A stretch of DNA of 36,742 nucleotides from positions 1 to 36,742 of the forward strand of contig NZ_QXXQ01000020.1 of the NCBI RefSeq assembly GCF_003570715.1. The letters run 5' to 3'. This DNA is from Gemmobacter lutimaris. Its GTDB lineage: Bacteria > Pseudomonadota > Alphaproteobacteria > Rhodobacterales > Rhodobacteraceae. The first letter of the stretch is position 1; every line of letters starts with the position of its first letter. Made by a program: the position numbers and the translations under genes. A model generated the notes under the pieces. It ran no database searches. It was not told where the DNA came from and saw only the letters and a list, made by a program, of their open reading frames with translations. This document shows positions 4,648-21,740 of the stretch, piece after piece.

Positions 4648-4735
4648 CGGGAAATCCTCACGAGAGCAGGAACAGGTCAGGCCCGATCAGCGCTCTCTCT
4701 CTCAACCGCCGGACCTGACCCGTCCCGGCACCCCT
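4648..4735 (-). promoter_or_regulatory. Nested-hairpin leader 1, before strawberry-notch gene
   Basis: On the minus strand, 4711-4720 can pair with 4675-4684 to give a 10-bp helix with one G-U pair. It encloses a purine-rich loop made of repeated GA (plus-strand CTCTCTCTCTC at 4693-4703). The ribosome binding region lies just 3' of the helix. This is the same layout as six other leaders in the window (see 8462, 10947, 13555, 13905, 19733, 21681). The pairing is read from the sequence; the regulatory role is inferred. Confidence 0.5.
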
Positions 4736-4750
4736 CTCCCTCTTCGCACC

Positions 4751-4842
4751 AAGGATCGCCGCCCGAATGGGTGGAGACTGCCCGCGGCAAGCTCCAGTCC
4801 GAAGGACCAGAGCGCGGTCCCGGCGGAACGCCGGGAGGTGCC
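4751..4842. ncRNA. Putative structured RNA element, copy A
   Basis: This ~92-nt stretch is clearly related to 14341-14429. Read on the plus strand it forms three successive helices: TGGAG/CTCCA (4772-4776 with 4792-4796), GTCC-GAA-GGAC (4797-4807) and CCCGGCG-GAA-CGCCGGG (4819-4835). In copy B the first helix has G-C in place of T-A at its outer pair and the second has G-C in place of C-G, so pairing is kept while the bases change. The strand cannot be decided; both copies lie upstream of minus-strand genes. Open reading frames across it are not convincing. Confidence 0.5.
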
Positions 4843-4974
4843 AAATTATCTTCATAGGATCGACGTGGTCGGCCCAGAGCTGCCGTTCGACGTCATTGCA
4901 ACGAAGGTCCACTTGGAGCCCAAAGTACCAGTTACTGCACTATGCGCGAATGTCGGCCATCAATGATACTACGC

Positions 4975-5835
4975 CTACACACGCGCAATCTCACGGATCA
5001 GATCATTTGTCTCTGGTCTCGTCGTTTGGTGCCGATAACGAAGAGCAGAAACAGTTCGCGAAATTTCAGGGCCGTCGATGGGTATCGAAACGAGGCCCCT
5101 GTCTGCTGGAATTGCCGTGGTTGGCAAAATCACCGCGCCTAATCCCTGCCGCGCGAGTTCGACTAACCAATCCACGCGATTTGACCGATAGGCTGCGTAG
5201 AGTTCGAGACCTTGGTCTGCACATGCCCGATGCAACGCATCGCGCATTTCGCAATTGGGTCGATCGAGCATGTCAGTTTCAGCGAGTGTCGAAAGAGAAA
5301 CAGCGTCTCGTTCAGACAACGGATGCGACTTGGACACCACAACCTTGTAGGACTCGTCATAGAGCCGGTCTATTCGATAGAGGTCTTCACTGACCGTCGC
5401 TGCTGTGACTACGACGTCAAATTCACCCTCTCGCAATCCGGCCAGAAGCTTGGAGGCCGACGCCACGATCAACTCTATTTCGGCTTGCGGCAATCGTGTA
5501 CGGAAGCGTTCCACGGCGGCTGAAATCCGGTTGTGACCAATCGTTTCGCCAACACCGACAGAAACAGGAACCCGCTCTAGTCGCGTGTGGCGGACGGCTT
5601 CTGCCTTAGCTGCCTGCGTTTCGTCATGCGCCTTCTGTAGCCTTGGCTGCATGAGTTTTCCGAGTGCCGTCAACCTGCATCCCGCGCGGTCCCTGACAAA
5701 CAGATCACCACCGAGCTCGTGTTCAAGTTTCTTGATCGCGGTCGTCAGGGACGGTTGGGAAACATTTGAGGCGCTAGCGGCATGGGTGAAGTTGCGATGC
5801 TGGCAGACAGCCAAAAAATACCTGATCTGGTTCAT
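4975..5835 (-). CDS. LysR-family transcriptional regulator
   Basis: This 286-residue protein has the layout of a LysR-type regulator. The N-terminal winged helix-turn-helix (MNQIRYFLAV, AASASNVSQPSLTTAIKKLE, LFVRDRAGCRLT) spans about residues 1-60, and a periplasmic-binding-protein-like effector domain follows. I chose the ATG at 5835 because family members usually begin within a few residues of this QIRYF motif; a GTG at 5859 would add eight residues. It diverges from the exported ABM-repeat gene at 5988, the usual place for a LysR target. A T-N11-A site (ATAG-N7-CTAT, 5880-5894) lies between them. The effector is unknown. Confidence 0.9.
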   Translation of the reverse strand: MNQIRYFLAVCQHRNFTHAASASNVSQPSLTTAIKKLEHELGGDLFVRDRAGCRLTALGKLMQPRLQKAHDETQAAKAEAVRHTRLERVPVSVGVGETIGHNRISAAVERFRTRLPQAEIELIVASASKLLAGLREGEFDVVVTAATVSEDLYRIDRLYDESYKVVVSKSHPLSERDAVSLSTLAETDMLDRPNCEMRDALHRACADQGLELYAAYRSNRVDWLVELARQGLGAVILPTTAIPADRGLVSIPIDGPEISRTVSALRYRHQTTRPETNDLIREIARV

Positions 5836-5879
5836 CTCCACTGCCACGGTCTCCGTCACTTTCCGCCATGAGGTTCACC

Positions 5880-5894
5880 ATAGCACATGTCTAT
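5880..5894. promoter_or_regulatory. Candidate LysR binding site (T-N11-A)
   Basis: ATAG and CTAT form a 4-bp inverted repeat with a 7-bp spacer, which satisfies the T-N11-A rule of LysR boxes. It sits in the divergent region between the LysR gene and the ABM-repeat gene. The motif is short and could occur by chance. Confidence 0.35.
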
Positions 5895-5987
5895 CAAAGA
5901 ATAGAAGTTCGGGATTGGTGTCTGAGGCATTCGGCATGGGAAAAGGGTGCATCGAAACCACAACGACCTGTCGATCAGGAGGCGACC

Positions 5988-6707
5988 ATGAAAGCCCAAA
6001 TTCTCAAGACACTCGCCGCTTTGGCCTTGATCACGACATCTGCACTCGCACAGGAAACCCCAATGGAAAATCACACTGCCAGCTACATCGCCATGCCCGC
6101 CGCTGAAGGCCAGACCGAAGCATTCGCCAAATTTCTGGCCGGAGCCGCCCCGATTGTCGCGGACACCGAACCAGGCACCGTGCTTTGGTTTGCCTTGCAA
6201 GCCGACGATACGCTCGCGATCTTTGATATCTTCGTGGATGAAAAAGCGCGCAATGCGCATTTCTCCGGCGCTGTAGCCGCGGCTTTGAACCAAAATGCCG
6301 ACGCGCTGGTCGCCGGGGGCTGGGACGATGGTGTTGTCGCGAATATCAACAATTCCGATGTCCTGTCGGTGAAAGAACCGGTTGATCTCTACTCGGCCAC
6401 GACAGCCACGTACATCACGCTCGAAGCAGCACCCGGCAGAGGGCCGGAATTGGCAGCCTTGCTGACCGCAGCTGGTCCCATCGTCGGAGAAAGCGAACCC
6501 GGCACACTGTTCTGGGCGGCGCTGCAGATTGACGAGACATCCTTCGCAATCTTCGACATCTTCGCCAACAATGCTGGCCGTGAAGCACACTTTGCCGGTC
6601 AAGTCGCCGGGCTGCTGAACGAACGGGCAGCGGAGTTGGTCGCTGGCGGGTGGGACGACGGTGTGGTCGCTAACGTCCACAACTTCGACATCCTCGCCAT
6701 CAAGTAA
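5988..6707 (+). CDS. Exported protein with two tandem ABM-like repeats
   Basis: The 239-residue product begins with a clear Sec signal peptide (charged MKAQILK, hydrophobic core, likely cut after ALA-21). Two homologous units follow, about residues 30-130 and 138-239. Both contain an EPGT...W.ALQ strand, an AIFDIF segment, an AHF.G helix and a GGWDDGVVAN loop. This matches two fused antibiotic-biosynthesis-monooxygenase-like (dimeric alpha-beta barrel) domains, so one chain may fold as a pseudodimer. ABM domains include quinol monooxygenases and heme-degrading enzymes, but no substrate can be assigned here. An AGGAGG ribosome binding site at 5977-5982 supports the ATG, and a strong hairpin terminator follows at 6730. 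It is probably controlled by the divergent LysR protein. Confidence 0.8.
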   Translation: MKAQILKTLAALALITTSALAQETPMENHTASYIAMPAAEGQTEAFAKFLAGAAPIVADTEPGTVLWFALQADDTLAIFDIFVDEKARNAHFSGAVAAALNQNADALVAGGWDDGVVANINNSDVLSVKEPVDLYSATTATYITLEAAPGRGPELAALLTAAGPIVGESEPGTLFWAALQIDETSFAIFDIFANNAGREAHFAGQVAGLLNERAAELVAGGWDDGVVANVHNFDILAIK

Positions 6708-6729
6708 CGCGATGTGACAGGAACAAGAG

Positions 6730-6757
6730 GCGCCTGGTGCAACGCATCAGGCGCTTT
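6730..6757 (+). terminator. Intrinsic terminator after ABM-repeat gene
   Basis: GCGCCTG (6730-6736) pairs with CAGGCGC (6748-6754), and a further GTGC/GCAT extends the stem to ~11 bp around an AAC loop. TTT follows. It lies 23 bp after the stop codon. Confidence 0.7.
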
Positions 6758-6893
6758 CCCGAACGAATTTAGATCATCGTGAAGCGGTCGTTCGAGTAAC
6801 TGCAGCGAATTGGCGCTTTGTTCGCATTGCTGACCTCCATCCTTTGCGCAGCGACCGTCCGCTCTCCGCCCTTGTGTGGAGCCGCAGTGCTTC

Positions 6894-6921
6894 GGCCCCG
6901 GTCTTTCAACCGGGGCCTTTT
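6894..6921 (+). terminator. Intrinsic terminator at left end of repeat copy 1
   Basis: GGCCCCGGT (6894-6902) and ACCGGGGCC (6909-6917) form a perfect 9-bp stem with a 6-nt loop, followed by TTTT on the plus strand. The matching hairpin in the second copy is at 16240. It faces the 3' end of the minus-strand DUF736 gene and would block plus-strand read-through into it. Confidence 0.7.
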
Positions 6922-6931
6922 GCATTGGCGA

Positions 6932-7255
6932 TCAGTCGCCACGGCGGGTGTTGGGGCGGGACCAGATGAGACTGTAGCCCTCGCCGTCTTCGTCATCGAA
7001 GAGGTTGGCGTAGATAGGGGCGGCAAAGCTCGGATCATCCAGCTTCAGGCCCAGGTATTCGCGGCCCTCGTTCGATTTCTTCGTCCAGGCGGCGCCGATC
7101 TCGGCGCGGCCGACCAAGACCCGGTGGCTGGGGGCGTTCTCGCCGGAGGCCCGCAGGTCGGCGGCGAGACGCACGCCCTTGGCCTGCAGGCTGAGGGTGA
7201 AGATTTCGCCGGTGTATTCGGTGCCGGTCTTCTTGAAGGTGCCGATGGTCGCCAT
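6932..7255 (-). CDS. DUF736 family protein, copy 1
   Basis: This 107-residue protein begins MATIGTFKKTGTEYTGEIFTL, the signature of DUF736, a small beta-rich family common on alpha- and betaproteobacterial plasmids and integrative elements. Its function is unknown. The ATG at 7255 is preceded by GGAGAAAGATC on the minus strand, and it matches the copy-2 start. Compared with the paralogue at 16277 only a few residues differ (T/N at position ~12, AA/VP before DLR, N/T near the C-terminus). Both genes appear intact, so the duplication is either recent or maintained. Confidence 0.9.
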   Translation of the reverse strand: MATIGTFKKTGTEYTGEIFTLSLQAKGVRLAADLRASGENAPSHRVLVGRAEIGAAWTKKSNEGREYLGLKLDDPSFAAPIYANLFDDEDGEGYSLIWSRPNTRRGD

Positions 7256-7430
7256 GATCTTTCTCCGTTTTGCTCTGTGATCCAAGCCCGCGTCCTTGCG
7301 GCCTCGATGGCGATCAAAGAGCCCGGAGGCGACTGCTGGCGCAGTCCCCCTGGGGAGCCTGACAGCCGAGGCGCAACTTTCTTGTCCCGCGAGGAATGAC
7401 GGTGCACCGCGCCGACAGGGGAAGAAAGTT

Positions 7431-7595
7431 GTGACGACGCTGTTGCGCCAAAGCGGTCGAGGCGAAGACGTCCTTCGGGCAGATCAGCCCATCACCAGAG
7501 GCCGTTTGGACGCGGCCTGGGACAGACGGGGAGAGGAGATCAAGGCGACGCTGAAGGCCCGTCAGGAGAGACAGGACTGGCGTAACCGGCAATGA
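7431..7595 (+). CDS. Small ORF in repeat copy 1 (54 aa, hypothetical)
   Basis: The GTG at 7431 is preceded by GGGGAAGAAA and opens a basic 54-residue frame rich in R, K and Q, ending RQERQDWRNRQ. The same frame with the same start and length is present in repeat copy 2 (16773-16937). Against a coding role, most of the base changes between copies alter amino acids (Q/R, D/A, A/V, G/R). It diverges from the DUF736 gene. I recognise no family. Confidence 0.4.
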   Translation: MTTLLRQSGRGEDVLRADQPITRGRLDAAWDRRGEEIKATLKARQERQDWRNRQ

Positions 7596-8038
7596 GAACC
7601 CTCGGCCCATCAGGCCTGCGCGCGCGCCCCCTGCCCTGCTGTCTCGCGGCATTCGCCGCCCCCTTGGTTTCTGGTCTGCCCGCAGAGGGCAGAGCAACAG
7701 ACGATCCTCGAATGACGCGGCCGCGATTGGGCCAAGATGCTGGCCCATCCAGGCTGCGGTCTCCTGTTCCCCCGATCAATTCGGTGAGAAACAGACGGCA
7801 CGGAGTATGCCCTGGTCCCCTGCCCTACTCACTGCTGCGCCGATGTTCGCTTGGCAATGGTGGGTCAAAAGCCAGGGACGTCGTGCCGTGAAACAGCCGA
7901 CGACACGGGACAGTGCGTCTGCGCCGAATGTCCAGCCTGAGCCAGTTGTATCCGCGAAATGCAAACACCCCCCCCGACGAAACCGCCGAAGGGTGCCACA
8001 GAATTGCGAGGTGCCAGTCAGATCGGCGCCGCCCAGTG
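7596..8038. other. Gene-poor stretch: decayed distal part of repeat copy 1 plus spacer
   Basis: Bases 7596-7850 are the diverged end of the long repeat. The reading frame seen in copy 2 (at 17044) is interrupted here by a stop. Bases 7851-8038 hold no convincing gene; a run of eight Cs lies near 7967. Nothing here looks like a terminator for the ArdB gene that ends at 8039. Confidence 0.5.
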
Positions 8039-8461
8039 TCAGTCGATCGCCTTGAAGATCTCGCCCACCTCGGGATGCTCGCCCGCGAACTCGTAAAGCC
8101 GCATATAGGCTTCCGACAGCTGATCGGCTTCGTGCCGGAACGACAGATGCGACAGGGCAAAGAGAGTGGCGATGACCCCGGCAGCCTCTGCCGAAACCTC
8201 GCCCATATAGCCGTTGGTCTCGCAGAAGATGCGGAAGCGCTTATCGGCGGCGGGCGACAGGAACAGGGGCCGGCCATCCCGCTCGTGAAAATGCCAGAGG
8301 CCGCCGGTGTAGTCATCCGGGGCCAGCCAGGACATGAACTGATAGACGGCCCGCTCACCGATCAGCATCAGCGCGGGGCTGAAGAGGGCGGGCAGGAAGG
8401 CCATGCGGCGCGCTTCGGGCACGAGGGTCGCGGGTTTCAGGGTGGAGGCAGCGTCGGTCAT
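8039..8461 (-). CDS. ardB: ArdB/KlcA-type antirestriction protein
   Basis: The 140-residue product carries the ArdB/KlcA core: AVYQFMSWLAPDDYTGGLWHF near residues 38-58 (the YxGGxW block), followed by a small alpha/beta domain of the usual ~140-residue length. ArdB and KlcA help incoming plasmids escape type I restriction in the cytoplasm and do not act as DNA mimics of the ArdA kind. The ATG at 8461 follows GAGGATTTCC. The 5' leader can fold to hide this site (next entry). The gene diverges from the LexA-boxed gene at 8628, so a DNA-damage link is possible. Confidence 0.85.
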   Translation of the reverse strand: MTDAASTLKPATLVPEARRMAFLPALFSPALMLIGERAVYQFMSWLAPDDYTGGLWHFHERDGRPLFLSPAADKRFRIFCETNGYMGEVSAEAAGVIATLFALSHLSFRHEADQLSEAYMRLYEFAGEHPEVGEIFKAID

Positions 8462-8558
8462 CGGAAATCCTCTTGATCAGGGGTGAAAGACACGTACTGG
8501 CGGCTCTCTCGACCCGCCCGAACGCCCCGGATTTCCGACCCAACTCTCGCTCTTTCAC
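8462..8558 (-). promoter_or_regulatory. Leader 2: antirestriction gene leader with two competing helices
   Basis: In the minus-strand transcript GTGAAAGA (8558-8551) pairs with TCTTTCAC (8490-8483), enclosing a GGCGG/CCGCC hairpin (8503-8499 with 8518-8514) with a GAGAG loop. Separately TCGGAAATCC (8538-8529) is a perfect 10-bp complement of GGATTTCCGA (8470-8461), which contains the ribosome binding region and first start base. The order 1-2-1'-2' means the two long helices interleave. They must either exclude each other or form a pseudoknot, as in riboregulators. The pairing is seen; the switching is inferred. Confidence 0.55.
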
Positions 8559-8568
8559 GGGCGTGGAG

Positions 8569-8597
8569 TTGACTTTGTTCCCTATATGTTCTATACT
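8569..8597 (+). promoter_or_regulatory. Sigma70-type promoter with embedded perfect LexA box
   Basis: TTGACT (8569-8574) and TATACT (8592-8597) are separated by 17 bp, a near-consensus promoter. Between them lies GTTC-CCTATAT-GTTC (8577-8591), an exact match to the alphaproteobacterial LexA site GTTC-N7-GTTC. LexA bound here would cover the spacer and block the gene at 8628, so SOS induction is the likely control. Confidence 0.75.
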
Positions 8598-8627
8598 GAG
8601 GGCTACGATCCGCATGGGAGACCCATC

Positions 8628-8918
8628 ATGGATGCTGCCCCTTTCGCCCTGCCCGCCACCGAACGCCAGATCGCCTATGCGCGGTCGCTGGCGCTTCGGA
8701 ACCAGAGCCTTCTGCCTTGGGAGGTCCAACAGGACCGCCGCTTGCTCAGCGCCTGGATCGAGGCGCAGGCGAAGCTGAAACCCTCCGACTCTGGCCAGCC
8801 GACGTCGAAGCAGGTGGCCTTTGCCGAGCGGCTCGCGCGGATCAAGCGCCGCGCGGTGCCGGATGAATGCTTCCGCGACCGCGCGCTGATGTCGAAGTGG
8901 ATCGACGGGAACCGGTGA
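8628..8918 (+). CDS. Small protein of two tandem ~38-residue repeats, LexA-box promoter
   Basis: I chose ATG 8628 because GGGAGA lies 7 bp upstream and it fits the promoter at 8569-8597; an upstream ATG at 8586 overlaps the -10 region. The 96-residue product is two repeats of one pattern: T-(R/K)-Q-x-A-(Y/F)-A-x-x-L-A, then P-x-E, DR-x-L-x-S-x-WI (about residues 8-47 and 56-95). Helical repeats beginning TEKQ-like resemble small DNA- or RNA-binding modules, but I recognise no named family. The damage-inducible promoter and the adjacent antirestriction gene suggest a role when the plasmid is under stress or entering a cell. That is inference. Confidence 0.75.
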   Translation: MDAAPFALPATERQIAYARSLALRNQSLLPWEVQQDRRLLSAWIEAQAKLKPSDSGQPTSKQVAFAERLARIKRRAVPDECFRDRALMSKWIDGNR

Positions 8919-8938
8919 GGTCAGTAGACCTCCACCGA

Positions 8939-9358
8939 TTACTTCATGCGATCCACGAGCTTTGCTGCCCCGGCCCTGGCAAGCGCCAGGAGCGTGGCGC
9001 GAATCTTGGCCGTGAAGGCCGGGCTAAATGCGCCAAGCGGCTTGCGATCATCCCAGACATAGGAGCGTTCGACGATGTCGGTGCTGACCTCGTCAAGCAT
9101 GATCAATTTGCGCACATAGGCTTCCAGAGCGACGCGCCGCGACTCGATTTCCGGCACTTCGATGGCGTGGCGCGCGGGCTGCGGCGGCTGCGTCGTGATC
9201 GGCAGGATGAAGACCACGGTCTCGCCATCCTGCCTCGCGACAGTCACCGCGATGCAAACGAGACGCTTCTTGCGACCTTCGGTTTCGCCGGAGAGTTCTT
9301 CCCGCTTCCAGAGGAACGGGTAGCGGAACACCTCGCCGGGGCTGGGCCTATTCGCCAT
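8939..9358 (-). CDS. PemK/MazF-like toxin
   Basis: This 139-residue protein has a PemK/MazF-type layout: GEVFRYPFLWKRE at the N-terminus, an ILPITTQPP strand-loop near residue 55 and a C-terminal FSPAFTAKI helix. MazF-fold toxins are mRNA endonucleases that stop growth when the labile antitoxin is lost. It overlaps the 3' end of the Phd-type antitoxin gene by 11 bp, the normal antitoxin-first order. It ends convergently with the gene at 8628; a GGTGAGGTC/GACCTCCACC hairpin sits between them. The exact subfamily is uncertain. Confidence 0.7.
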   Translation of the reverse strand: MANRPSPGEVFRYPFLWKREELSGETEGRKKRLVCIAVTVARQDGETVVFILPITTQPPQPARHAIEVPEIESRRVALEAYVRKLIMLDEVSTDIVERSYVWDDRKPLGAFSPAFTAKIRATLLALARAGAAKLVDRMK

Positions 9359-9602
9359 CCTGGTTCATGTCCTGCTCCAGCCCTTCAATCATCAAGGCCT
9401 TCAAATCGTCAGGCATCTCATCCAGCATGTGAACCTGCTGGGTCGCACCCCGGGCGAGCTGTTGGTATTGATCCATACTCATCAGCACGAATTTCGGCTT
9501 GCGATGCTTGGTGATGGCAATCGGCGACCGGATCGCCGCATCGAACAGCTCGCTGGTGTGCCGCGTCAGGTCTGCAGCCTTGAACTCGGGAAGCTCATGC
9601 AT
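9348..9602 (-). CDS. Phd/YefM-type antitoxin
   Basis: The 84-residue product begins MHELPEFKAADLTRHTSELFDAA and continues SPIAITKHRKPKFVLMSMDQYQQL, the Phd/YefM DNA-binding fold, with a charged C-terminal tail for binding the toxin. The start at 9602 was chosen over an upstream frame extension because it begins at the conserved motif. The palindrome at 9621-9642 lies just upstream and probably serves as the autoregulatory operator. The gene overlaps the toxin gene, consistent with one transcript. Confidence 0.8.
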   Translation of the reverse strand: MHELPEFKAADLTRHTSELFDAAIRSPIAITKHRKPKFVLMSMDQYQQLARGATQQVHMLDEMPDDLKALMIEGLEQDMNQDGE

Positions 9603-9620
9603 ACCGGGACCTCCATTTGT

Positions 9621-9642: not shown

Positions 9643-9674
9643 ATATTCCGCAAGAGCGACGGAGCGGCCCGCCT

Positions 9675-10382: not shown

Positions 10383-10946
10383 TCAGATGGCATGCGCGTG
10401 GCCCATGAGGCTCCGGGCGAGGTCGCGCCAGAAGGGATCGACGAGACGGCCTTCCAGCGCACGTGCCCGAACGATCAGCGCATCCGCCCCAGTCGGATTT
10501 CCGGCGCCCACCGCCGCCCGTGCCTCGGACCGCAGGTGGCACGCCTCGCTGACCACGCTCCGCGCCTCAGCATCACTGGCCACTGGCGTGTACCAGGCGA
10601 TCCCGTCCGCCTTCACCTCGCCCGCCAGCACGAGGTAGTGGTCGGCATCGAGGACAGTGACAAACTGCGGCACCATCCGCAGATCGGGGTCGCGATCCGC
10701 AGCGATCAGACCGGACGCGACGGAAGTAGCGGCTTTGGCCATCGCGGATGCGAGGTCGCCGAAGGTGCCGAGTTCCACGTCGCGCTCGAAGCGCAGCTGA
10801 TCGAGCGCCGGGGCGTCCCAATGCGCGCGGCACTGGCAGCTGACCCGCAGCGGCAGGCGGGTCGCGAGGCGCAACTGGGCCAAGGCCCCACCAACGAAGA
10901 TGTCGCGCGGGCCGCGGAAGGCGGTCTGGGAAATGGGGGCGGTCAT
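10383..10946 (-). CDS. Uncharacterised plasmid protein (187 aa) with hairpin leader
   Basis: The ATG at 10946 (MTAPISQTAFRGPRDIF) was preferred to an upstream frame because it lies directly after a nested-hairpin leader and its GGAG site. The 187-residue product is soluble, with mixed alpha/beta character (LVLAGEVKADGIAWYTPV, WRDLARSLMGHAHAI). I recognise no named domain, only a family seen among hypothetical proteins of rhodobacteral plasmids. Its leader matches those of ParB, DUF932 and others here, so it probably belongs to the same regulon. Confidence 0.65.
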   Translation of the reverse strand: MTAPISQTAFRGPRDIFVGGALAQLRLATRLPLRVSCQCRAHWDAPALDQLRFERDVELGTFGDLASAMAKAATSVASGLIAADRDPDLRMVPQFVTVLDADHYLVLAGEVKADGIAWYTPVASDAEARSVVSEACHLRSEARAAVGAGNPTGADALIVRARALEGRLVDPFWRDLARSLMGHAHAI

Positions 10947-11008
10947 CAGGGTCACTCCGCGACGGGCGGCGGGAGACCTCCTCCCACCTGTTGACCCGTC
11001 ACGGACCC
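10947..11008 (-). promoter_or_regulatory. Nested-hairpin leader 3
   Basis: CCCGTCACG (10995-11003) pairs with CGCGACGGG (10958-10966) with one G-U. CTCCC/GGGAG (10981-10985, 10971-10975) forms the inner hairpin. GGGTC/GACCC (10949-10953, 11004-11008) extends the base so that the GGAG ribosome binding site lies in the internal loop. The same framework is seen before DUF932 (21681). Confidence 0.55.
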
Positions 11009-11072
11009 TATCCCCCCGCCTCTGCCTCTGGCGGGTGTCCGACCGCACACCAGGCACCCGCCTTCCGGTTCG

Positions 11073-13059: not shown

Positions 13060-13554
13060 TCAGAAATCATGGGTGTAGAGTTCGGACGAGGTGAACCGTT
13101 CGTTGAACTCGAGGTGGATGGTCCGGGCGTGGGCATCGATGCAGAACTCGCCATAGGCGCCGTCATTGTCCTGCCAGCCGGAATGAGTGTCAGAGAGGAG
13201 GTCGTAGACCAGTTCCTCAACAGCGCCTTCGAGGGTTAGGCGGCACTCGGTCGGGGCCCCAGACTGCCAGTCGATGCCGGCAAAGGTGATCTGGGCGGCG
13301 GGCAGCGTGACTCTGGCATCAAGGCCACTGCGGGCTTCGATGCTGTCGATCTGGCCACTGTCGCCCGAGCCATCAAAGCTGACGAGGACATGGGCGATGC
13401 CGACCTGGCGCAGACCGTCGAAGAGCACCTCCTTGTTTCGGGCGTGCAATGCCACTTCGGCAGCCTCACGCTCAGCCTGTTCGGCCAGGATGCGGGACAG
13501 TTCGGACGGGAGTTCAGGGGCCGGCGCAGCGCGGCCGGGAAGGTGGATGGTCAT
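13060..13554 (-). CDS. DUF6878 family protein
   Basis: The ATG at 13554 (MTIHLPGRAAPAPEL) was preferred to the longer frame because a nested-hairpin leader with a GGAG site ends right before it. The 164-residue product shows the DUF6878 core: LFDGLRQVGIAHVLVSFDGSGDSGQIDSIEA, then LVYDLLSDTHSGWQDNDGAYGEFCIDAHARTIHLEFNERF and the terminal YTHDF. The many acidic, Gly-rich turns suggest a small alpha/beta domain. Function is unknown. It leads an operon with DUF6915 and the 68-residue protein. Confidence 0.8.
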   Translation of the reverse strand: MTIHLPGRAAPAPELPSELSRILAEQAEREAAEVALHARNKEVLFDGLRQVGIAHVLVSFDGSGDSGQIDSIEARSGLDARVTLPAAQITFAGIDWQSGAPTECRLTLEGAVEELVYDLLSDTHSGWQDNDGAYGEFCIDAHARTIHLEFNERFTSSELYTHDF

Positions 13555-13633
13555 TTCGGATCTCCGGGAAGAGCGGGTTACAGGCGAGCCCGCCGCCGCT
13601 CTCTCTGTCTCGGCGGGCTCGCCTTGCCCGCTC
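13555..13633 (-). promoter_or_regulatory. Nested-hairpin leader 4, before DUF6878 gene
   Basis: The inner stem is 13 bp perfect (13611-13623 with 13583-13595) with a GAGAGAG-containing loop. The outer stem is GAGCGGG/CCCGCTC (13627-13633 with 13571-13577), extendable with G-U pairs. The GGAGATC ribosome binding region follows. Further upstream GCCGGACC/GGTCCGGC can form another 8-bp stem. Confidence 0.6.
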
Positions 13634-13739
13634 CCCCCTCGACCTCTCCTTTGCCGGACCCCTCGGTTCGGCGCCGTTTCCCCTGGTCCGGCGCGCTGGA
13701 ACAGCGCGACCCGGAAAGGGGATGAGGCGCTTGCGCGCC

Positions 13740-13904
13740 TCATTGCCAGGGATCGATTTCCAGGGCGACGAGCGCCTCGTCGCCATCGTATTCATCGGAC
13801 GGCATCGCCCCATGCGTGCCGTCCCCGGCCTGAAACACGGTGATCGCGACCATCAGCGTGGCGGCGAGGCTGGCGGCGTAAGCGGTGGCATCCTTCTTGG
13901 ACAT
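13740..13904 (-). CDS. Small acidic plasmid protein (54 aa)
   Basis: The start MSKKDATAYAASLAATLMVAITVFQAGDG at 13904 follows AGGAG in the leader. The 54-residue product has a moderately hydrophobic alanine-rich helix (about residues 8-26) that could be a membrane segment or a buried helix, then an acidic tail ending DPWQ. No family is recognised. A hairpin (GAGGCG/CGCCTC, 13724-13742) immediately follows the stop on the minus strand. Confidence 0.6.
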   Translation of the reverse strand: MSKKDATAYAASLAATLMVAITVFQAGDGTHGAMPSDEYDGDEALVALEIDPWQ

Positions 13905-13974
13905 GGGGTCAGCTCCTGTCTTCTTGGGGGCGGAGGACCATCCCCCGCGCGACAGGCGCCCGAAGTGTCTGACC
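13905..13974 (-). promoter_or_regulatory. Nested-hairpin leader 5, before small acidic gene
   Basis: Three nested helices are visible: GGTCAG/CTGACC (13969-13974 with 13907-13912), CTGTC/GACAG (13951-13955 with 13916-13920) and a GGGGG/CCCCC core (13942-13946 with 13926-13930). The AGGAG ribosome binding site lies in the short gap between the outer two helices, so it would be constrained when folded. Confidence 0.55.
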
Positions 13975-14340
13975 GGATATGCAATCACCCTCGTGCGTTC
14001 GGCTCGCCCGAATCCGCGAGGGCGGCACGCCCGCGTAGCCGACCCCTCTGGGGTTGAGTGTCAAAGAGACGGATCAGACCAAGGACAGCGAATGGAAGCG
14101 GGGGATGGGGCTTTGAACCCGGAAAGGAGCCCCGCACCGTCACAGGATGCCCACCGCTCGCCAGCCTTGCGGCCACGCGGGTAGCTAGCGATCGGCGCGG
14201 TTCAGACCGGGACAGAGAAGCGGAACGCTGCAAATGATGAATACGGGCGGGCATGCTCGCCCCCTGGAAATCCCTGGCACCAGGTCGAAGCGCCGAACTC
14301 TTCGGCAGCGCTTTCATTCTGGCCAGATTGGCCGTCGCGC
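13975..14340. other. Hairpin-rich intergenic region without a convincing gene
   Basis: Reading frames here are low-complexity and unconvincing. Several strong local stems are present: GGGGCT/AGCCCC around 14116-14141, GGGCG/CGCCC near 14248-14264, CCTGGCACCAGG near 14273, and GCCGAA-CTC-TTCGGC near 14293. The region joins leader 5 to element copy B, so it may be part of one long 5' untranslated transcript on the minus strand or a separate RNA. Confidence 0.4.
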
Positions 14341-14429
14341 AAGGGATCGCTGCCCGAATGGGGGGAGACTGCCCGGCAGGCTCCCGTCGGGACGACCAGA
14401 GCCCGGTCCCGGCTCTGCCGGGATGTGCC
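14341..14429. ncRNA. Putative structured RNA element, copy B
   Basis: This is the partner of 4751-4842. The helices are GGGAG/CTCCC (14363-14367 with 14381-14385), GTCG-GGA-CGAC (14386-14396) and CCCGGC-TCT-GCCGGG (14408-14422). The linkers GCCCGAATGG, GAGACTGCCCG and ACCAGAGC are shared with copy A almost unchanged, while stem bases differ in compensating pairs. Strand undecided. Confidence 0.5.
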
Positions 14430-14528: not shown

Positions 14529-14529
14529 T

Positions 14530-16239: not shown

Positions 16240-16266
16240 GGCCCCGGTCTTTCGACCGGGGCCTTT
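16240..16266 (+). terminator. Intrinsic terminator after AbiEii
   Basis: GGCCCCGGT (16240-16248) pairs with ACCGGGGCC (16255-16263); the TTTCG-type loop differs from copy 1 by one base. TTT follows. It lies 50 bp after the toxin stop codon. Confidence 0.65.
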
Positions 16267-16276
16267 GCCTTTGCGA

Positions 16277-16600
16277 TCAGTCGCCGCGGCGGGTGGTGGG
16301 GCGGGACCAGATGAGGCTGTAGCCCTCGCCGTCTTCGTCATCGAAGAGGTTGGCGTAGATGGGCGCGGCGAAGCTCGGATCGTCCAGCTTCAGGCCCAGG
16401 TATTCGCGGCCCTCATTCGATTTCTTCGTCCAGGCGGCGCCGATCTCGGCGCGGCCGACCAGGACCCGGTGGGAGGGGGCATTCTCGCCCGAGGCCCGCA
16501 GATCGGGGACGAGGCGCACGCCCTTGGCCTGCAGGCTGAGGGTGAAGATTTCGCCGGTGTATTCATTGCCGGTCTTCTTGAAGGTGCCGATGGTCGCCAT
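16277..16600 (-). CDS. DUF736 family protein, copy 2
   Basis: The 107-residue paralogue of the gene at 6932 begins MATIGTFKKTGNEYTGEIFTL and differs at only a few positions, including VPDLR in place of AADLR and TTRRGD in place of NTRRGD. The reading frame is intact. The ATG at 16600 follows GGAGAAAGAAC. As with copy 1 the family is widespread on mobile replicons and has no established function. Two near-identical copies on one replicon are unusual and make this a substrate for recombination. Confidence 0.9.
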   Translation of the reverse strand: MATIGTFKKTGNEYTGEIFTLSLQAKGVRLVPDLRASGENAPSHRVLVGRAEIGAAWTKKSNEGREYLGLKLDDPSFAAPIYANLFDDEDGEGYSLIWSRPTTRRGD

Positions 16601-16937: not shown

Positions 16938-17244
16938 GAACCAACTCAGACCGCCAGGCCTGCGTGCGCTTCCCCTGCCCTGCTGCCTCGCGGTATACGA
17001 CGCACCGACGGGCTTCAGGTCTGCCCGCTGATGGCAAAGCAAATGACGATCTTCGAGCGACTTGGCCGCGATTGGGCCAAGATGCTGGTCGATCTGGCCT
17101 GCGGTCTCCACTACTTCCGCCCAATTCGTTGAGAAACAGACGGCGGTGTATGTGCCCTGGTCCCCCTGCCCCACTCACCGCCGCGCCGATGATCGCCCAG
17201 CAAACGCCTTTCGAAAACCGGGGCCGCGGCATCCGCACCCGAGC
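16938..17244. other. Distal part of repeat copy 2, no firm gene
   Basis: A 29-codon frame starting at 17044 (MTIFERLGRDWAKMLVD...) is open here but interrupted in copy 1. It could be a remnant of a short peptide or chance. Two GGGCAGGG octamers (minus strand, 16973 and 17164) fall inside, in the same relative places as in copy 1. Confidence 0.4.
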
Positions 17245-17273
17245 TTGAACGAAACACGAACAGGCTCTATGCT
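17245..17273 (+). promoter_or_regulatory. Sigma70-type promoter overlapping a perfect LexA box
   Basis: TTGAAC (17245-17250) and TATGCT (17268-17273) are 17 bp apart. GAAC-GAAACAC-GAAC (17247-17261), the complement of GTTC-N7-GTTC, overlaps the -35 element. It is the second exact LexA box found at a promoter in this window. Confidence 0.7.
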
Positions 17274-17303
17274 GAATCTACATCTTGCAAAGTGAGGCCA
17301 GCC

Positions 17304-17531
17304 GTGACTCCATACCGTGATTGGGACCAGGATTCCGGCATCCGGGCCTATGAGATTGGCTCAACGCATATGGATATCGTGTTCAAGGATGGAGCGATCT
17401 ATCGCTACACCTCGTTGTCGGCTGGGCAGGCCAATATCGACCGCATGATCGTGCTGGCGCGGGCGGGAGATGGGCTGAACCAGTTCATCAATCGGGCCGT
17501 TAAGACGCGCTACGCCGAACGGATGGCATGA
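17304..17531 (+). CDS. KTSC-like small protein with LexA-box promoter
   Basis: GTG 17304 is chosen because GTGAGG lies 6 bp upstream; a GTG at 17292 would add four residues. The 75-residue product has a KTSC-like core (MDIVFKDGAIYRYTSL, then ARAGDGLNQFINRAVKTRY). KTSC is a small domain found alone and at the C-terminus of some lysyl-tRNA synthetases; its biochemical role is not established. The promoter suggests induction by DNA damage. It ends convergently with the ParB-like gene, with a shared hairpin between them. Confidence 0.7.
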   Translation: MTPYRDWDQDSGIRAYEIGSTHMDIVFKDGAIYRYTSLSAGQANIDRMIVLARAGDGLNQFINRAVKTRYAERMA

Positions 17532-17558
17532 AGCATTCGCTCTCGATCCGCCCACATG

Positions 17559-17588
17559 AAAAAACGGGGTGACCGAAGCCACCCCGTT
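17559..17588 (-). terminator. Intrinsic terminator of the ParB-like gene
   Basis: AACGGGGTG/CACCCCGTT (17563-17571, 17580-17588) form a 9-bp perfect stem closed by a UUCG-type loop. On the minus strand it is followed by six Us (17559-17564), directly after the stop codon at 17594. It may also slow plus-strand transcription from the KTSC gene. Confidence 0.8.
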
Positions 17589-17593
17589 CCAGG

Positions 17594-19732
17594 TCATTCT
17601 GCCGCGATCAGCTGCTGGCGCTCCTCTTCGTCTTCAGGATGCGCCTCGTCGTCTTCCGTGAGGAAGGCGGGAAGCTCATCGCTGCCGACGTCCTGCACCG
17701 GAGCGGCAGCCGCATCGGGGTCGTCCAGCCGCAGCGGCTCGGGCAGCCAGCCGGAGCCGTCGAGGAGCCGTTCAGCCTCGCACGCCATGTCGCCCTTCTT
17801 CAGGTGGTCGATCAACTGCGCCGCACTTTCGCCCACCCCTTCGCGCACGGCTTCCAGGATGCGGCTCTTGGTGACGCGGCCGAGGTAGTTGGCGACCGTC
17901 GGCTTCCAGCCCGCCTCGACGAGATCGAGCCCGGTGGTACGGGCCAGACGATCCGCCTCGCGCAGACGGCGATCGAGACCGTGCTGGCTGATTCCCATGC
18001 CGCTGTAGGGGTTGGGACGCTCGTAGAGCGCGTTCACCCCGAAGCTGAGGCAATGGGCGAGGAGCGCCTGACGGCTCGCCTCATCCAGCGCATGCAGCCA
18101 ATCCCAGAGCACATCATCCCCCTGCCCCAGCGGCATGTCCGCCTTCCAACCGGCGTGGCGGGTGTCGATGTTCTGGGCCGGAAAGCTGTCGGCAAGATCT
18201 GCGGACTGCACGGCCAAGTGGATGTCGCGCACATTGGCTTCAAGCGCGGCCCCGGAGGCGCGAGAGACGAAGCAATCCGTGACCAACTTGTGCAGAAGCG
18301 CCGTCATCGCGATGCGCGGGTTGTTGGCGACGGCATCGCGCAGCGCCAGGGTGCGATGTGCGGTCAGTTCGATGACGAGACGCTCCGGCAGCGGCTTGAT
18401 CGCATCGCCTTCGTCCTCATCCTCCTCCAGCGGGCGCGTTTCGCCAGCCATGCTGATCACCGGAGCAGGGCGTTCGCCGGTGCCGGGGTCCATCGGCTCG
18501 GTGCCATCCGCGCCAACGTCACCCGCATTGCCCAGCGGCTCTGCGCGCGCTTCATCCTCGGGCCGAACAAACCCGCGTTCAACCAGCAAACTGCCGTCGC
18601 TGTCGATGCTGACGAAGGCCCCTGCACTGCCGATCTGATCGGGATCGAAGGCCATCCGGCGGCTATCAAAGGCGCTGAGCTGACGTTCGATTTCGCCCAA
18701 GCGCTGATCGACCTCTTCGGGCAGGTCCTCGGCCTCGGCATATTCGGCCTCCAGCCGGTCGTATTCGTCACGCAGCGCCTCGCGGGTTGCCCGCTCCTCG
18801 TTCGTCAGATCGACCGTGGTGCCCAGGAGTTCGCGCAGGCCCATGGTGTGTCCGTAGGGAAAGCCCACGGCGACCTCGATCCATTTCCAGCCCTCGCCAG
18901 CGATGGCCTCGGCTTCCGCCTTCAGCTTCTCGCCAACAAGGCGTTCAAGCAGCACAGAGTCTTGCAGCCAACCACCATCATCCTGCTGGAAGAGGTCGCG
19001 CAGGACGAAGCCGCCCGCGGCCTCATAGGCATCGAGCCCGAGGAACCGGGCGCGCTTGTCAGAGGCCCGCACAGACCCTTCCGTCAGCATGCGGCGGATC
19101 TGGTAAGGTTCTTTCGACCAGGAATTCTTTACCGCCTCCCAGACCTGCGCTTGACGTGCGTGATCGCTGGAGACGGTGAAGGCCATCAGCTGTTCCAGCG
19201 TCATCTCATCGGCGGCGTAGACTTCGAGGAGCACCGGCGCGACGGCGACGAGGCGCAGGCGCTGCTTCACCACCTTGGCATCGACGAAGAAGGCCGCCGC
19301 GATGGCTTCTTCGGTCATGCCCTTCTCGCGCATCGCCTGGAAGGCGCGGAACTGGTCCAGAGGATGCAGCGGCGCCCGCTCGATGTTCTCGGCCAGTGAG
19401 ACTTCATCGATCAGCACGCCATCATCGACGGAGCTGACGATGCAGGGCACCGGGGCCGATTTGGCTAGGCGCTTTTGCTTCACCAGCAGTTCCAGCGCGC
19501 GGTAACGGCGGCCGCCAGCGGGCACTTCGAACTTTCCGGTCTCGACCCCATCCTCACCGATCACCGGGCAAACGTGCAGGCTCTGGATCAGGCCGCGGCG
19601 GGCAATGGATTCGGCCAGTTCGTCCACCGAGATCCCGGCCTTCACACGCCGGACGTTAGACTGGCTCAGGACCAGATTGTGGAAGGGGATATCCCGCGAG
19701 GACGCGAGGGTGATTTTCTGCATATTGGTCAT
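17594..19732 (-). CDS. Large ParB/RepB/Spo0J-domain plasmid protein
   Basis: The 712-residue product starts MTNMQKITLASSRDIPFHNL at 19732, right after a nested-hairpin leader. Residues ~20-200 form a ParB N-terminal domain: VPAGGRRYRALELL near 72 (the GERRYRA CTP-binding box) and VSLAENIERAPLHPLDQFRAF near 112, followed by a helix-turn-helix. The long C-terminus holds a coiled, acidic stretch (about residues 340-385) and no known domain. Such oversized ParB-like proteins sit beside DUF932 and RadC genes on alphaproteobacterial plasmids. They are probably not the partition ParB, because a repABC system with its own RepB is expected upstream of repC. Confidence 0.8.
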   Translation of the reverse strand: MTNMQKITLASSRDIPFHNLVLSQSNVRRVKAGISVDELAESIARRGLIQSLHVCPVIGEDGVETGKFEVPAGGRRYRALELLVKQKRLAKSAPVPCIVSSVDDGVLIDEVSLAENIERAPLHPLDQFRAFQAMREKGMTEEAIAAAFFVDAKVVKQRLRLVAVAPVLLEVYAADEMTLEQLMAFTVSSDHARQAQVWEAVKNSWSKEPYQIRRMLTEGSVRASDKRARFLGLDAYEAAGGFVLRDLFQQDDGGWLQDSVLLERLVGEKLKAEAEAIAGEGWKWIEVAVGFPYGHTMGLRELLGTTVDLTNEERATREALRDEYDRLEAEYAEAEDLPEEVDQRLGEIERQLSAFDSRRMAFDPDQIGSAGAFVSIDSDGSLLVERGFVRPEDEARAEPLGNAGDVGADGTEPMDPGTGERPAPVISMAGETRPLEEDEDEGDAIKPLPERLVIELTAHRTLALRDAVANNPRIAMTALLHKLVTDCFVSRASGAALEANVRDIHLAVQSADLADSFPAQNIDTRHAGWKADMPLGQGDDVLWDWLHALDEASRQALLAHCLSFGVNALYERPNPYSGMGISQHGLDRRLREADRLARTTGLDLVEAGWKPTVANYLGRVTKSRILEAVREGVGESAAQLIDHLKKGDMACEAERLLDGSGWLPEPLRLDDPDAAAAPVQDVGSDELPAFLTEDDEAHPEDEEERQQLIAAE

Positions 19733-19787
19733 TGGACCGATCTCCCGACGGGCGCCGAGAACCTCTCTCTCGACTTCCAACCCGTCG
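19733..19787 (-). promoter_or_regulatory. Nested-hairpin leader 6, before ParB-like gene
   Basis: CGACGGG/CCCGTCG (19781-19787 with 19746-19752) forms the outer stem and CGAGA/TCTCG (19768-19772 with 19756-19760) the inner hairpin with a GAGAGGT loop. The GGGAGATC ribosome binding region starts at the base of the outer stem. Confidence 0.6.
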
Positions 19788-19845
19788 AAAACCCCCTGCC
19801 CTTCTCTCCCTCTGACCCACGCGGCCGCTGCGCCAGGGCTGGTCA

Positions 19846-20346
19846 TTAGAAATCCCCCCGGCCGCGCAGACTGACCTCCCGTCCCGCACCGACGATGATG
19901 TGGTCGTGCAAGGTGAGGCCGAGGACGCCACAGGCCTTCTGAACTTCCTTCGTCATGGCGATGTCGGCCTCCGATGGCTCGGGATCGCCGGACGGGTGGT
20001 TGTGGACCAGGATCAGCGCCGAGGCATTGAGGTCCAGGGCGCGCCTGACAACCTCTCGCGGATAGACCGGGACGTGATCGACCGTACCGACGCCAAGGCG
20101 CTCGTCGGAGATCAGGCGGTTCTTGCGGTCGAGGTATAACACATGGAACCGTTCGACCTCACCGCGAACTGCGAGCGCGCAATAGTCCAGAAGCGCAGCC
20201 CAAGACGCCAGCACAGGATTACGGTTGATGTGGCGGGCAAGGATCTCGCGGGCGGCAAAGATCGTGGCCTGCTCTTGTGCGGTCAGCTCGGCGCAGCAAG
20301 AGCGACGCGGGATGAAGGTGGCGGGGTGTTCGAAAAAGCGGGTCAT
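19846..20346 (-). CDS. RadC-like JAB-domain protein
   Basis: This 166-residue protein is essentially the JAB/MPN domain of RadC-family proteins, with the metal-binding motif VHNHPSGDPEPSEADI near residues 113-128 and an upstream FHVLYLDRKNRLI strand. Despite the RadC name, no DNA-repair enzyme activity is established; plasmid copies (YeeS-like) are very common in anti-defence islands. The ATG at 20346 starts MTRFFEHPATF. It lies between DUF932 (terminator at 20433) and the ParB-like gene on the same strand, without a recognisable leader of its own. Confidence 0.85.
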   Translation of the reverse strand: MTRFFEHPATFIPRRSCCAELTAQEQATIFAAREILARHINRNPVLASWAALLDYCALAVRGEVERFHVLYLDRKNRLISDERLGVGTVDHVPVYPREVVRRALDLNASALILVHNHPSGDPEPSEADIAMTKEVQKACGVLGLTLHDHIIVGAGREVSLRGRGDF

Positions 20347-20432
20347 GTCTGGTCTCATTTACTGATCCCAGCCGAAATCGCCCGGACAGCATCTTGCCGC
20401 CAAGGCGAATTGGCCGAAATTGGAGGAAGGCG

Positions 20433-20469
20433 AAAAGGCGGGGCAGCAGGCCACGGAGCCCCCTGCCCC
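20433..20469 (-). terminator. Possible terminator after DUF932
   Basis: GGGGCAG/CTGCCCC (20463-20469 with 20440-20446) forms a 7-bp stem with a 16-nt loop; on the minus strand GCCTTTT (Us at 20433-20436) follows. It begins 12 bp past the DUF932 stop codon. The loop is long, so strength is uncertain. Confidence 0.45.
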
Positions 20470-20480
20470 ACTGCCGATGC

Positions 20481-21680
20481 TTAGCCGACGTGATCGAGGA
20501 GCTTCTTGGCCCGGCCTTCCATGTCGAGACGGGCATCCTGCTGGGTCTTGTCGCGCGCAAGCCGCGTGATGCCCTGCACGAAGTCAAAGATACTTTCCGG
20601 TGGGCGGCCCTCTTCCATCAGCACCTTCTCGATGATCTTGCTGGACTCGGCTTTCGAGAAGCCGCGTTTCCTCAGGAAGTTGTCCCGGTCCTCATCCGTC
20701 CGCGCCACGATCTGCTGCCGCGCGGCCTTGATGCCCTTCACGAAGCCCTGCGGCGAGGAATTGGCAAACCGCGTTAGGGCCGGGGCGGCCTCATGGGCAA
20801 AGCGGGAGGCGGCATACTTCGAGTGGCGGATGGTGATTTCCTGAAACTCTTCCTGCCCCCAAATGTTCCGGTTCTGGCAGACCGCCCGCAGGTAAAAGCT
20901 TGCCATGCCCAGCGTCTTGGCCCCCACTTCGGAATTCCAGCAGTAGAAACCCCGGAAGTAGAGATCGGGGGAGCCGTCGGGCAGCCGGCCCGCCTCAATT
21001 GGGTTGTGATCGTCGACCAGGAACAGGAAGACGTCGCGGTCCGAGGCATAGAGCGTGGTTGTGTCGCGGCTGATCTCGACATCGGGGTTGTAGACCCCGG
21101 TCGACCAGTCGAGCACGCCCGGCACCTTCCAGCGCGTGTCGCCCGTGCCATTGCCCGCGATGCGCTGGACCGCCTCGACCAGTTCATAGTCATGGATGCG
21201 GCCGTAGTCCGGCCCGGTGACCGCGCGCAGTTCCGTGCGACCATCTTCCGTCTCGAAGGTCTTCACTTGCTCGGCGCGGTGGTTGGTCAGGCCATATTGC
21301 AGGTTGATCCCCGCCAACGGCGCGGGCAGCTGCCGCAGGTAGGAGGCCGGAGCGCCAATGATGCTGGCGAGCTGGCCGAAGGCCCAGTGCGTGGGTGCGA
21401 CGGGTTCATGAGCCTTCGGCAGCATCAGATGCAACCGCTCGGGGTTGTCGCGCGCGGCCTCGACCCGGATGTCGGCCGTCGCGACGACACGGGACCGACT
21501 GCGCTCAGACCGACCCTTCACCGAGGCCCAGAGTTCATCGAGCGAGAGATACCGCTCGTCATCCGGCCGGTTGAACCATTCGGACGACACCCGCCCGTTC
21601 CGCTCACCCCGGCTTACATCTACCTTCCAGCCACCCGACCGGGCCGGCGCGACCGGATCCTGAACCTCCACAACACCCAT
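20481..21680 (-). CDS. DUF932 domain protein
   Basis: The 399-residue product contains the DUF932 core (LHLMLPKAHEPVAPTHWAFGQLASIIGAP, GRIHDYELVEAVQRI, FYLRAVCQNRNIWGQEEFQEITIRHSKYA). The family is typical of phages and plasmids, and its function is unknown, though a role in replication or transfer is often assumed from context. The ATG at 21680 is preceded by GGGAGATAGCTG at the foot of a nested-hairpin leader. Neighbours on the same strand are RadC/JAB and ParB-like genes, a frequent trio on rhodobacteral plasmids. Confidence 0.85.
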   Translation of the reverse strand: MGVVEVQDPVAPARSGGWKVDVSRGERNGRVSSEWFNRPDDERYLSLDELWASVKGRSERSRSRVVATADIRVEAARDNPERLHLMLPKAHEPVAPTHWAFGQLASIIGAPASYLRQLPAPLAGINLQYGLTNHRAEQVKTFETEDGRTELRAVTGPDYGRIHDYELVEAVQRIAGNGTGDTRWKVPGVLDWSTGVYNPDVEISRDTTTLYASDRDVFLFLVDDHNPIEAGRLPDGSPDLYFRGFYCWNSEVGAKTLGMASFYLRAVCQNRNIWGQEEFQEITIRHSKYAASRFAHEAAPALTRFANSSPQGFVKGIKAARQQIVARTDEDRDNFLRKRGFSKAESSKIIEKVLMEEGRPPESIFDFVQGITRLARDKTQQDARLDMEGRAKKLLDHVG

Positions 21681-21740
21681 CAGCTATCTCCCGCGACGGA
21701 CGCCGGGAGCCACTCTCCCGAACCCTCAACCCGTCACCGG
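21681..21740 (-). promoter_or_regulatory. Nested-hairpin leader 7, before DUF932 gene
   Basis: GTGACGG/CCGTCGC (21731-21737 with 21693-21699, one G-U) forms the outer stem and CGGGAG/CTCCCG (21715-21720 with 21704-21709) the inner hairpin. The GGGAGA ribosome binding site abuts the outer stem. It is closest in sequence to leader 3. Confidence 0.6.

Follow-up and report, generated by a model that had tools for sequence, protein, structure and literature searches.

A family of candidate structured mRNA leaders upstream of putative establishment genes in Alphaproteobacteria

The window analysed here is the whole of a 36,742-nucleotide (nt) stretch of DNA from Gemmobacter lutimaris (assembly GCF_003570715.1, contig NZ_QXXQ01000020.1, positions 1-36,742 of the forward strand). 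Seven genes on its minus strand are each preceded by a short, hairpin-forming leader. Judged by sequence, six of these leaders form one family with two related types, while the seventh is a separate element. The family probably consists of cis-acting structured mRNA leaders, which would act at the level of translation and mark an establishment regulon of alphaproteobacterial conjugative plasmids and probable integrative elements.

To our knowledge, how conjugative elements switch on their establishment genes outside the F-like plasmids is mostly an open question. The leader family provides a searchable signature, across a bacterial class, for establishment and anti-restriction genes of unknown function (a family of 172-187 amino acids (aa), DUF6878 and DUF932). 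As a compact RNA family, the leaders also make the control of establishment genes testable with standard reporters.

Leader types

All seven leaders described in an earlier note on this DNA are present on the minus strand at the gene starts where it placed them, and end at or within the ribosome binding site. They are as follows (R2 and R3 are search models described below).

21678..21762, minus strand: type A, ahead of the DUF932-like gene, whose ATG lies at 21680; box AGAGTAAGAG (21753-21762), core at 21678-21738; matched by profile
19730..19813, minus strand: type A, ahead of the ParB-like gene, whose ATG lies at 19732; box AGAGGGAGAG (19804-19813); matched by profile and also, weakly, by R2
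10944..11029, minus strand: type A, ahead of the 187-aa hypothetical gene, whose ATG lies at 10946; box AGAGGCAGAG (11020-11029)
4645..4743, minus strand: type B, ahead of the strawberry-notch-like helicase gene, whose ATG lies at 4647; box AGAGGGAGAG (4734-4743), loop GAGAGAGAG
8459..8553, minus strand: type B, ahead of the ArdB-type antirestriction gene, whose ATG lies at 8461; box AGAGCGAGAG (8544-8553), loop GAGAGAG
13552..13647, minus strand: type B, ahead of the DUF6878 gene, whose ATG lies at 13554; variant box AGAGGTCGAG (13638-13647) and a long stem; weakest of the six (expectation value, E, 0.023)
13902..13963, minus strand: type C, ahead of the 54-aa hypothetical gene, whose ATG lies at 13904; CCTGTC/GACAGG stem that overlaps the AGGAG site, GGGGGATGGTCCTCC-type hairpin; R3 match at 13912-13963

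The earlier note saw a single design in all seven; this holds for six, in type A (10946, 19732 and 21680) and the longer type B (4647, 8461 and 13554). Read from the 5' end, the design common to the six comprises an AGAGnnAGAG box, a rod-like stem, an apical hairpin with a GAGAG-type loop, the ribosome site and the ATG. The distance from box to start codon is approximately 80-100 nt, with a single rod. Box, loop and ribosome site are common to both types, and the purine loops are conserved, as the earlier note had it. In type A, AGAGnnAGAG is followed by some 15 nt and then by GTGACGGG, a bulge that spans about 6 nt and often reads TTGAGG, a hairpin whose loop is AGNGG, and finally G, CCCGTCRC, GGAG and ATG; in type B the order is AGAGnnAGAGG, a longer and more variable rod, the loop GAGAGAG, GGAG and ATG.

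Pairs read from the sequence of the 10946 leader place the rod stem at 10995-11003 with 10958-10966 and the apical hairpin at 10981-10988 with 10968-10975; GGAG lies at 10955-10958, and an outer AGGGTC/GACCCT helix joins 11004-11009 to 10948-10953. In the 8461 leader, the ribosome site is covered by a CGGAAATCC/GGATTTCCG helix. The same leaders stand before both orthologous and non-orthologous genes in the eight related-plasmid regions compared.

R1, the type A model, was built from 20 rows, among them the 10946, 19732 and 21680 leaders, and does not extend to the AGAG box. It scores these three leaders at 66.5, 59.7 and 70.7 bits; since all three were training rows, a search with an independent profile is the fair test. 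Such a profile, with 119 rows from loci matching a box-plus-stem pattern and none from the window or from genome G000, finds them at E values of 2.5e-9, 9e-13 and 2.9e-13. The two matches that rank next, with E 0.71 and 2.4, fall inside the 4647 leader. A type B profile of 12 non-window rows recovers the leaders of 4647 (E 6.5e-9), 8461 (E 3.2e-5) and 13554 (E 0.023), as well as the type A leader of 19732 (E 7.7e-4); its best non-leader match has E 2.1. Profiles containing no window sequence therefore recover six leaders, each above every non-leader match. R2, the type B model, was built on sequence only because RNAalifold gave a weak result on the mixed type B alignment; it also matches the 19732 type A leader (E 1.3e-4).

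The 13904 leader (type C) has a CCTGTC/GACAGG stem and a GGG..CCC hairpin, and does not contain the AGAG box. Its relatives precede ssb and the same 54-aa gene, and it belongs to a separate element common to plasmid ssb leaders. Type C is a short stem-loop that covers the ribosome site of the 54-aa gene and also stands before the plasmid ssb genes of loci L010 and L013-L017. R3, the type C model (13 training rows, including the 13904 sequence), matches 15 of 149 family-sample genomes; 13 of these are among the 27 with type A. The outer GGTCAG/CTGACC helix of the 13904 leader is not kept in relatives and was rejected as a conserved feature.

The AGAG box

The most constant feature of the family, which the earlier note missed, is the AGAGnnAGAG box. 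It lies 81-96 nt before the ATG in five of the seven window leaders; the 13554 leader carries the variant given above. Among 210 of the 211 type A leaders ending in ATG (one was dropped because its flank was too short), AGAGnnRRAG occurs within 60 nt before the core in 147, and in 140 of those 147 at 24-26 nt. The strict form is found in 121 of the 210, whereas its frequency in the fetched loci (0.113 per kb and strand) would predict approximately one. The A11 set was chosen by a pattern that itself contains AGAG, so its box count (114 of 118) is biased and is not evidence; this set supplies the 119 profile rows and part of the 297-core set used below. In folds of 256 leaders, the box is unpaired more often (0.56) than the segment that follows it (0.27).

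Upstream of the box there is no in-register conservation: 252 box-bearing leaders aligned on the box give 0.03-0.34 bits per column over 60 nt. A conserved promoter upstream of the box was rejected, as no -35/-10 pair occurs at a fixed place in these leaders.

Two local features were observed in this upstream region. Within about 40 bases before the box, the ParB-like leaders of L010, L013, L014, L015 and L016 carry perfect palindromes such as TTCTTGACCGCGGTCAAGAA or AGTTCACAGCTGTGAACT; the sequences differ and the symmetry is kept, as in an operator. Upstream of the type A leaders of L048, L050, L250, L282 and L303 there is a conserved hairpin pair, CCCCTTCTGCGGGGAGACCCCGCAACGCCCC, preceded in L250, L282 and L303 by a GGGGAAAGCCTTCCCC-type repeat.

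Covariation of the stems

The earlier note also held that stem bases change while pairing is kept, and the alignments agree. In 20 sequences with 17 stem pairs, 95.1% of cells are paired (92.0% in shuffles) and six pairs show two-sided change, a result seen in none of 500 shuffles; when the register is slid, at most 55% of cells are paired. Related sequences can mimic covariation; for this reason, null alignments were simulated along the tree, with substitutions placed either uniformly or by column rate (300 of each). No single pair was significant with 113 sequences; sequences were therefore added and the test was moved to sums over stems. Identical cores were collapsed, giving sets of 198 and 297 distinct cores, and matches not ending in ATG were dropped (3 of 214 and 5 of 335).

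For the 198 distinct cores in the model-fitted alignment, summed covariation reaches 252 in the rod and 578 in the apical hairpin; the highest null values are 179 and 163. A structure-blind MAFFT alignment, in which the stem columns were set from its consensus after the single-pair result was seen, gives 210 and 445 against 198 and 165. None of the 300 null alignments reaches the stem sums, under each of the two nulls and on both alignments. With 297 cores, the top five of 1596 column pairs are all structural, and E is below 0.05 for two of them under the uniform null and for one under the rate-kept null. In an extended alignment, three pairs of the hairpin exceed the uniform null and not one exceeds the rate-kept null; the strongest single signals there are phase shifts of the AGAG box, which are an alignment effect. 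Taken together, the stems show more covariation than either tree-based null produces. Covariation, which the earlier note had named as a check, is thus found for the set, and single pairs pass only in part. Conserved, compensating stems stand directly upstream of the starts of several gene families, as in a structured cis-regulatory mRNA leader.

The way in which pairs are lost also bears on the molecule that folds. On the mRNA strand of the 198 cores, changes from Watson-Crick pairs lead to G·U in 114 cases, to A·C in 29 and to other mismatches in 44. By raw count, G·U cells exceed A·C cells by 685 to 83 in the 297 cores and by 488 to 80 in the structure-blind alignment. This excess of G·U on the mRNA strand favours RNA, and disfavours a promoter formed in the single-stranded DNA (ssDNA) of the transferred strand.

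The ribosome site

Type A Shine-Dalgarno sites are predicted to be mostly paired. In folds of 114 type A leaders, the mean probability that the site is unpaired is 0.30, compared with 0.50 when the upstream sequence is shuffled. The site pairs with its own upstream strand at 0.67 and at 0.55 after upstream strands are swapped between leaders (320 of 330 leaders; the ten with no located Shine-Dalgarno sequence were left out).

Spread among genomes

R1 matches 27 of 149 family-sample, 28 of 385 class-sample and 34 of 398 phylum-sample genomes, which are lower bounds due to stricter search filters; all matches lie in the window's own class, Alphaproteobacteria. The exact box-plus-stem pattern occurs in at least 119 stretches among 84,980 species genomes. 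Among the 80 pattern matches listed, 75 have alphaproteobacterial names and five are named only 'Proteobacteria' or 'Bacterium'; also judging by names, the genera belong to Rhodobacterales, Hyphomicrobiales, Sphingomonadales, Caulobacterales, Rhodospirillales and others. One stretch in a viral collection matches the same pattern.

The genome of G. lutimaris itself holds ten type A, nine R2 (one of which is a type A leader) and six type C matches, on several contigs. R2 was run on 38 of the 79 genomes that carry type A and matched 30, some of the matches being type A leaders. Some leader matches lie on contigs of several megabases, where the leaders may belong to integrated elements. By these sequence matches, the family is not confined to one plasmid and occurs in many Alphaproteobacteria. 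The plasmid-wide regulon suggested in the earlier note was accordingly too narrow in extent; a multi-gene group that could be a regulon stands, and the family is larger than was noted.

Downstream genes and their orientation

Of 214 type A matches in the fetched loci, 211 end in ATG, and 203 of these open a reading frame of at least 50 codons or one that is open to the fetched end. The proteins encoded downstream of the first 119 matches, where 50 aa or longer, number 106 and fall into clusters of 39 ParB-like, 33 DUF932, 18 ArdC, 11 of 172-187 aa and five others. These counts were used because single linkage, applied to the proteins downstream of the whole set of 330 leaders, joined the ParB-like and ArdC clusters. 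Pfam, run on 81 of the 106, is in broad agreement and gives ParB_N in 26, ArdcN in 18, MPTase-PolyVal in 17 and DUF932 in eight, with a few helix-turn-helix, sigma-region-4, TrbI, TraG and DUF2958 matches. The leaders thus precede unrelated genes of a plasmid lifestyle, as claimed earlier. One leader-bearing gene (L075, 184-1503) has a product in which a ParB_N part is joined to a TrbI domain; TrbI is found in two of the 81 proteins.

Leading-region genes have a characteristic polarity, with the transferred strand as template, and the orientation of the leader genes is the same. In five complete plasmids with a located relaxase (Pukyongiella p2, P. aminophilus pAMI8, C. ethanolicus, Ponticoccus p-SCP2 and Martelella pMM259; mobC is annotated in four), the leader genes point toward the cluster of relaxase and type IV coupling protein genes, which is transcribed away from them. 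Orientation is given relative to the relaxase and not to a mapped origin of transfer, and the plasmids of L010, L013 and L016 were left out. No relaxase was found in the stretch fetched from Ketogulonicigenium pYP1. In two related plasmids, Qat anti-phage genes lie near the relaxase or the leader gene cluster (L170, 13338-15184; L173, 1154-3885).

Proposed control of translation

The findings suggest that one RNA-level switch controls the leader genes together; the downstream genes probably help a transferred plasmid to settle in its new cell. The type A Shine-Dalgarno sequence is predicted to pair with the strand immediately 5' of the rod, and the rod would thereby keep the ribosome site closed or partly closed. 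The purine-rich, mostly single-stranded AGAGnnAGAG box and the apical GAGAG-type loop may form a constant recognition surface. A trans-acting factor, either a protein or a small RNA, would bind box and loop and shift the rod between its closed and open forms. Anti-restriction, ParB-like, DUF932, helicase and similar genes would then be translated together, probably in a short period after entry into the recipient; both the direction of control and this timing are inferred.

Several points weigh against this reading. The evidence for leader function is entirely computational, consisting of sequence and predicted folds. No single pair passed the tree null with 113 cores, and none is significant in the structure-blind alignment (best E 0.1), where the support comes from the set of pairs. 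The G·U excess consists of counts uncorrected for a possible strand bias of C-to-T versus G-to-A changes. The last 6 nt before the ATG pair upstream no better than swaps do (0.364 versus 0.328, p 0.08), and the Wilcoxon p-values of the swap test treat related leaders as independent. Single-sequence folds of type B often leave GGAG open or in a small, weak hairpin; sequestration of the type B site is thus often unclear, and occlusion may not be a step that both types have in common. Finally, CsrA, ProQ/FinO and DUF736 include no universal partner among the 79 type A carriers of the three samples. CsrA is present in only five of these genomes, ProQ/FinO in only three and DUF736 in 54; since each is missing from some carriers, none of the three can be the general partner.

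A bolder form of the proposal is possible, though doubtful. A single RNA-level regulator, either shared by hosts across Alphaproteobacteria or borne by the element, would read the boxes and purine loops and switch the whole establishment regulon (ArdB, ArdC, ParB-like, DUF932 and helicase/methylase genes) at translation, as an RNA counterpart of the Frpo and pLS20 regulons. In its boldest version the signal would be the incoming single strand, for example by titrating a single-strand-binding protein off the leaders.

Alternative explanations

The leaders are rather unlikely to be mRNA processing or stability elements, serving as entry sites for RNase III or RNase E or as 5' protection, instead of translational switches. 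A stable hairpin by the ribosome site and a single-stranded 5' purine box could guide or block a nuclease, and type B often has no clear hiding of the Shine-Dalgarno sequence; the type A site, however, favours its own upstream strand over a swapped one as pairing partner.

It is unlikely that the leaders are targets of a conserved trans-acting small RNA whose pyrimidine loops pair with box and loop, in which case the regulon would be real and the partner an RNA. Box and loop repeat one purine-rich sequence, which suits them to pairing, and each of the three protein families examined is missing from some carriers. Reading 12 loci for occurrences of the box and its complement, with no further search, revealed no such RNA; the exact spacing of the box fits a protein too.

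A conserved element acting only as DNA (an operator, part of a promoter, or a recombination seam copied between genes), with the RNA folds as by-products, is improbable. GACGGG and GAGAG are highly conserved in sequence, the spacing from box to core is fixed, and some ParB-like leaders have a palindrome upstream. Set against these are the covariation of the stems beyond the tree nulls, the G·U bias and the ATG that closes 211 of the 214 matches.

Least probable is an ssDNA promoter of the Frpo/ssi kind, with hairpins in the transferred strand at which RNA polymerase would start and give early expression in the recipient. In its favour, the leaders form strong inverted repeats, and in the five plasmids the leader genes are oriented toward the mobC/relaxase end. 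The constant TGAC of GTGACGGG looks like part of a -35 hexamer, and such promoters serve leading-region genes in other plasmids (PMC11541004). Against it, the transferred strand would be the complement of the mRNA, in which every G·U becomes an A·C mismatch, yet G·U dominates on the mRNA strand. In addition, the element runs into the Shine-Dalgarno sequence and ATG, no TATAAT-like -10 hexamer is conserved in a profile of 210 leaders, and the 252 leaders have no -35/-10 at a fixed upstream place.

Other features of the window

The genes downstream of the six family leaders, and one neighbour, are as follows.

328..4647, minus strand: strawberry-notch-like helicase gene, 1439 aa, with AAA_34 and Helicase_C_4 (Pfam)
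8039..8461, minus strand: ArdB-type antirestriction gene (PF03230, Pfam)
10383..10946, minus strand: 187-aa hypothetical gene with no Pfam match; clusters with a 172-aa gene of L010 when the proteins of all leaders are clustered
13060..13554, minus strand: DUF6878 gene (domain match)
17594..19732, minus strand: ParB-like gene, 712 aa, ParB_N (Pfam)
19846-20358: RadC/JAB gene, downstream of the DUF932-like gene
20481..21680, minus strand: DUF932-like gene, 399 aa; DUF932 at 22.3 bits, slightly under the curated cut-off of 23

The window also encodes RepC (35531-36661). Nearby, adjacent genes for a DnaE-like polymerase and an ImuB-like protein (minus strand, 29521-34235) resemble a plasmid mutagenesis cassette. 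Two minus-strand DUF736 genes (matches at 6953-7249 and 16298-16594) lie in repeats at 6913-7212 and 16258-16557 with similar flanks, a duplication about 9.3 kb apart. A 41-bp repeat with 88% identity is found at 4744-4784 and 14335-14375; its first copy is directly upstream of the 4647 type B leader. No relaxase is among the genes named in the window, where no relaxase model was scanned.

Comparison with known systems

The earlier statement that no described class matches the leaders agrees with the Rfam searches. Rfam 15 gives no match over the gathering cut-off in the window, and only rRNA and tRNA in L010-L012. Under relaxed thresholds nothing was found at the leaders in window positions 4000-25000 (E up to 3) and 8420-8620 (E up to 10) or in seven loci (E up to 5). 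A literature search of titles and abstract openings found no description of the leader family; this coverage is partial and does not establish absence from print.

In CsrA/RsmA sites, a hairpin loop close to the ribosome site carries a purine motif, and the leaders are similar in this respect; they differ in that so few type A carriers have CsrA. The radC RNA (RF01754), which precedes DNA-handling and plasmid genes, was rejected as a match: its best score in the G. lutimaris genome is 15.7 bits, not at the leaders, compared with a cut-off of 40 bits. This motif is listed for Proteobacteria (PMC2864571).

The Frpo/ssi elements of F and ColIb-P9 are ssDNA promoters with -35/-10 in the folded transferred strand, and leading-region genes use the transferred strand as template (PMC11541004). 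The likeness lies in hairpin elements before leading-region anti-defence and ssb genes (PMC11541004). In contrast, the leaders described here pair on the mRNA strand, adjoin the ATG and have no conserved -10.

The closest concept to the leader family is EGeRS1 of the pLS20 plasmid family in Bacillus. EGeRS1 is a GC-rich inverted-repeat region upstream of several establishment operons, including ardC; it is tied there to an establishment regulon, its mechanism is unknown, and it is 400-600 bp long with multiple branches (PMC8708921). In both cases, a structured region is common to several probable establishment genes and lies immediately upstream of their ribosome sites. Compared by description, the family described here differs in its leaders of 80-100 nt with a single rod, in its occurrence in Alphaproteobacteria and in its G·U evidence for RNA.

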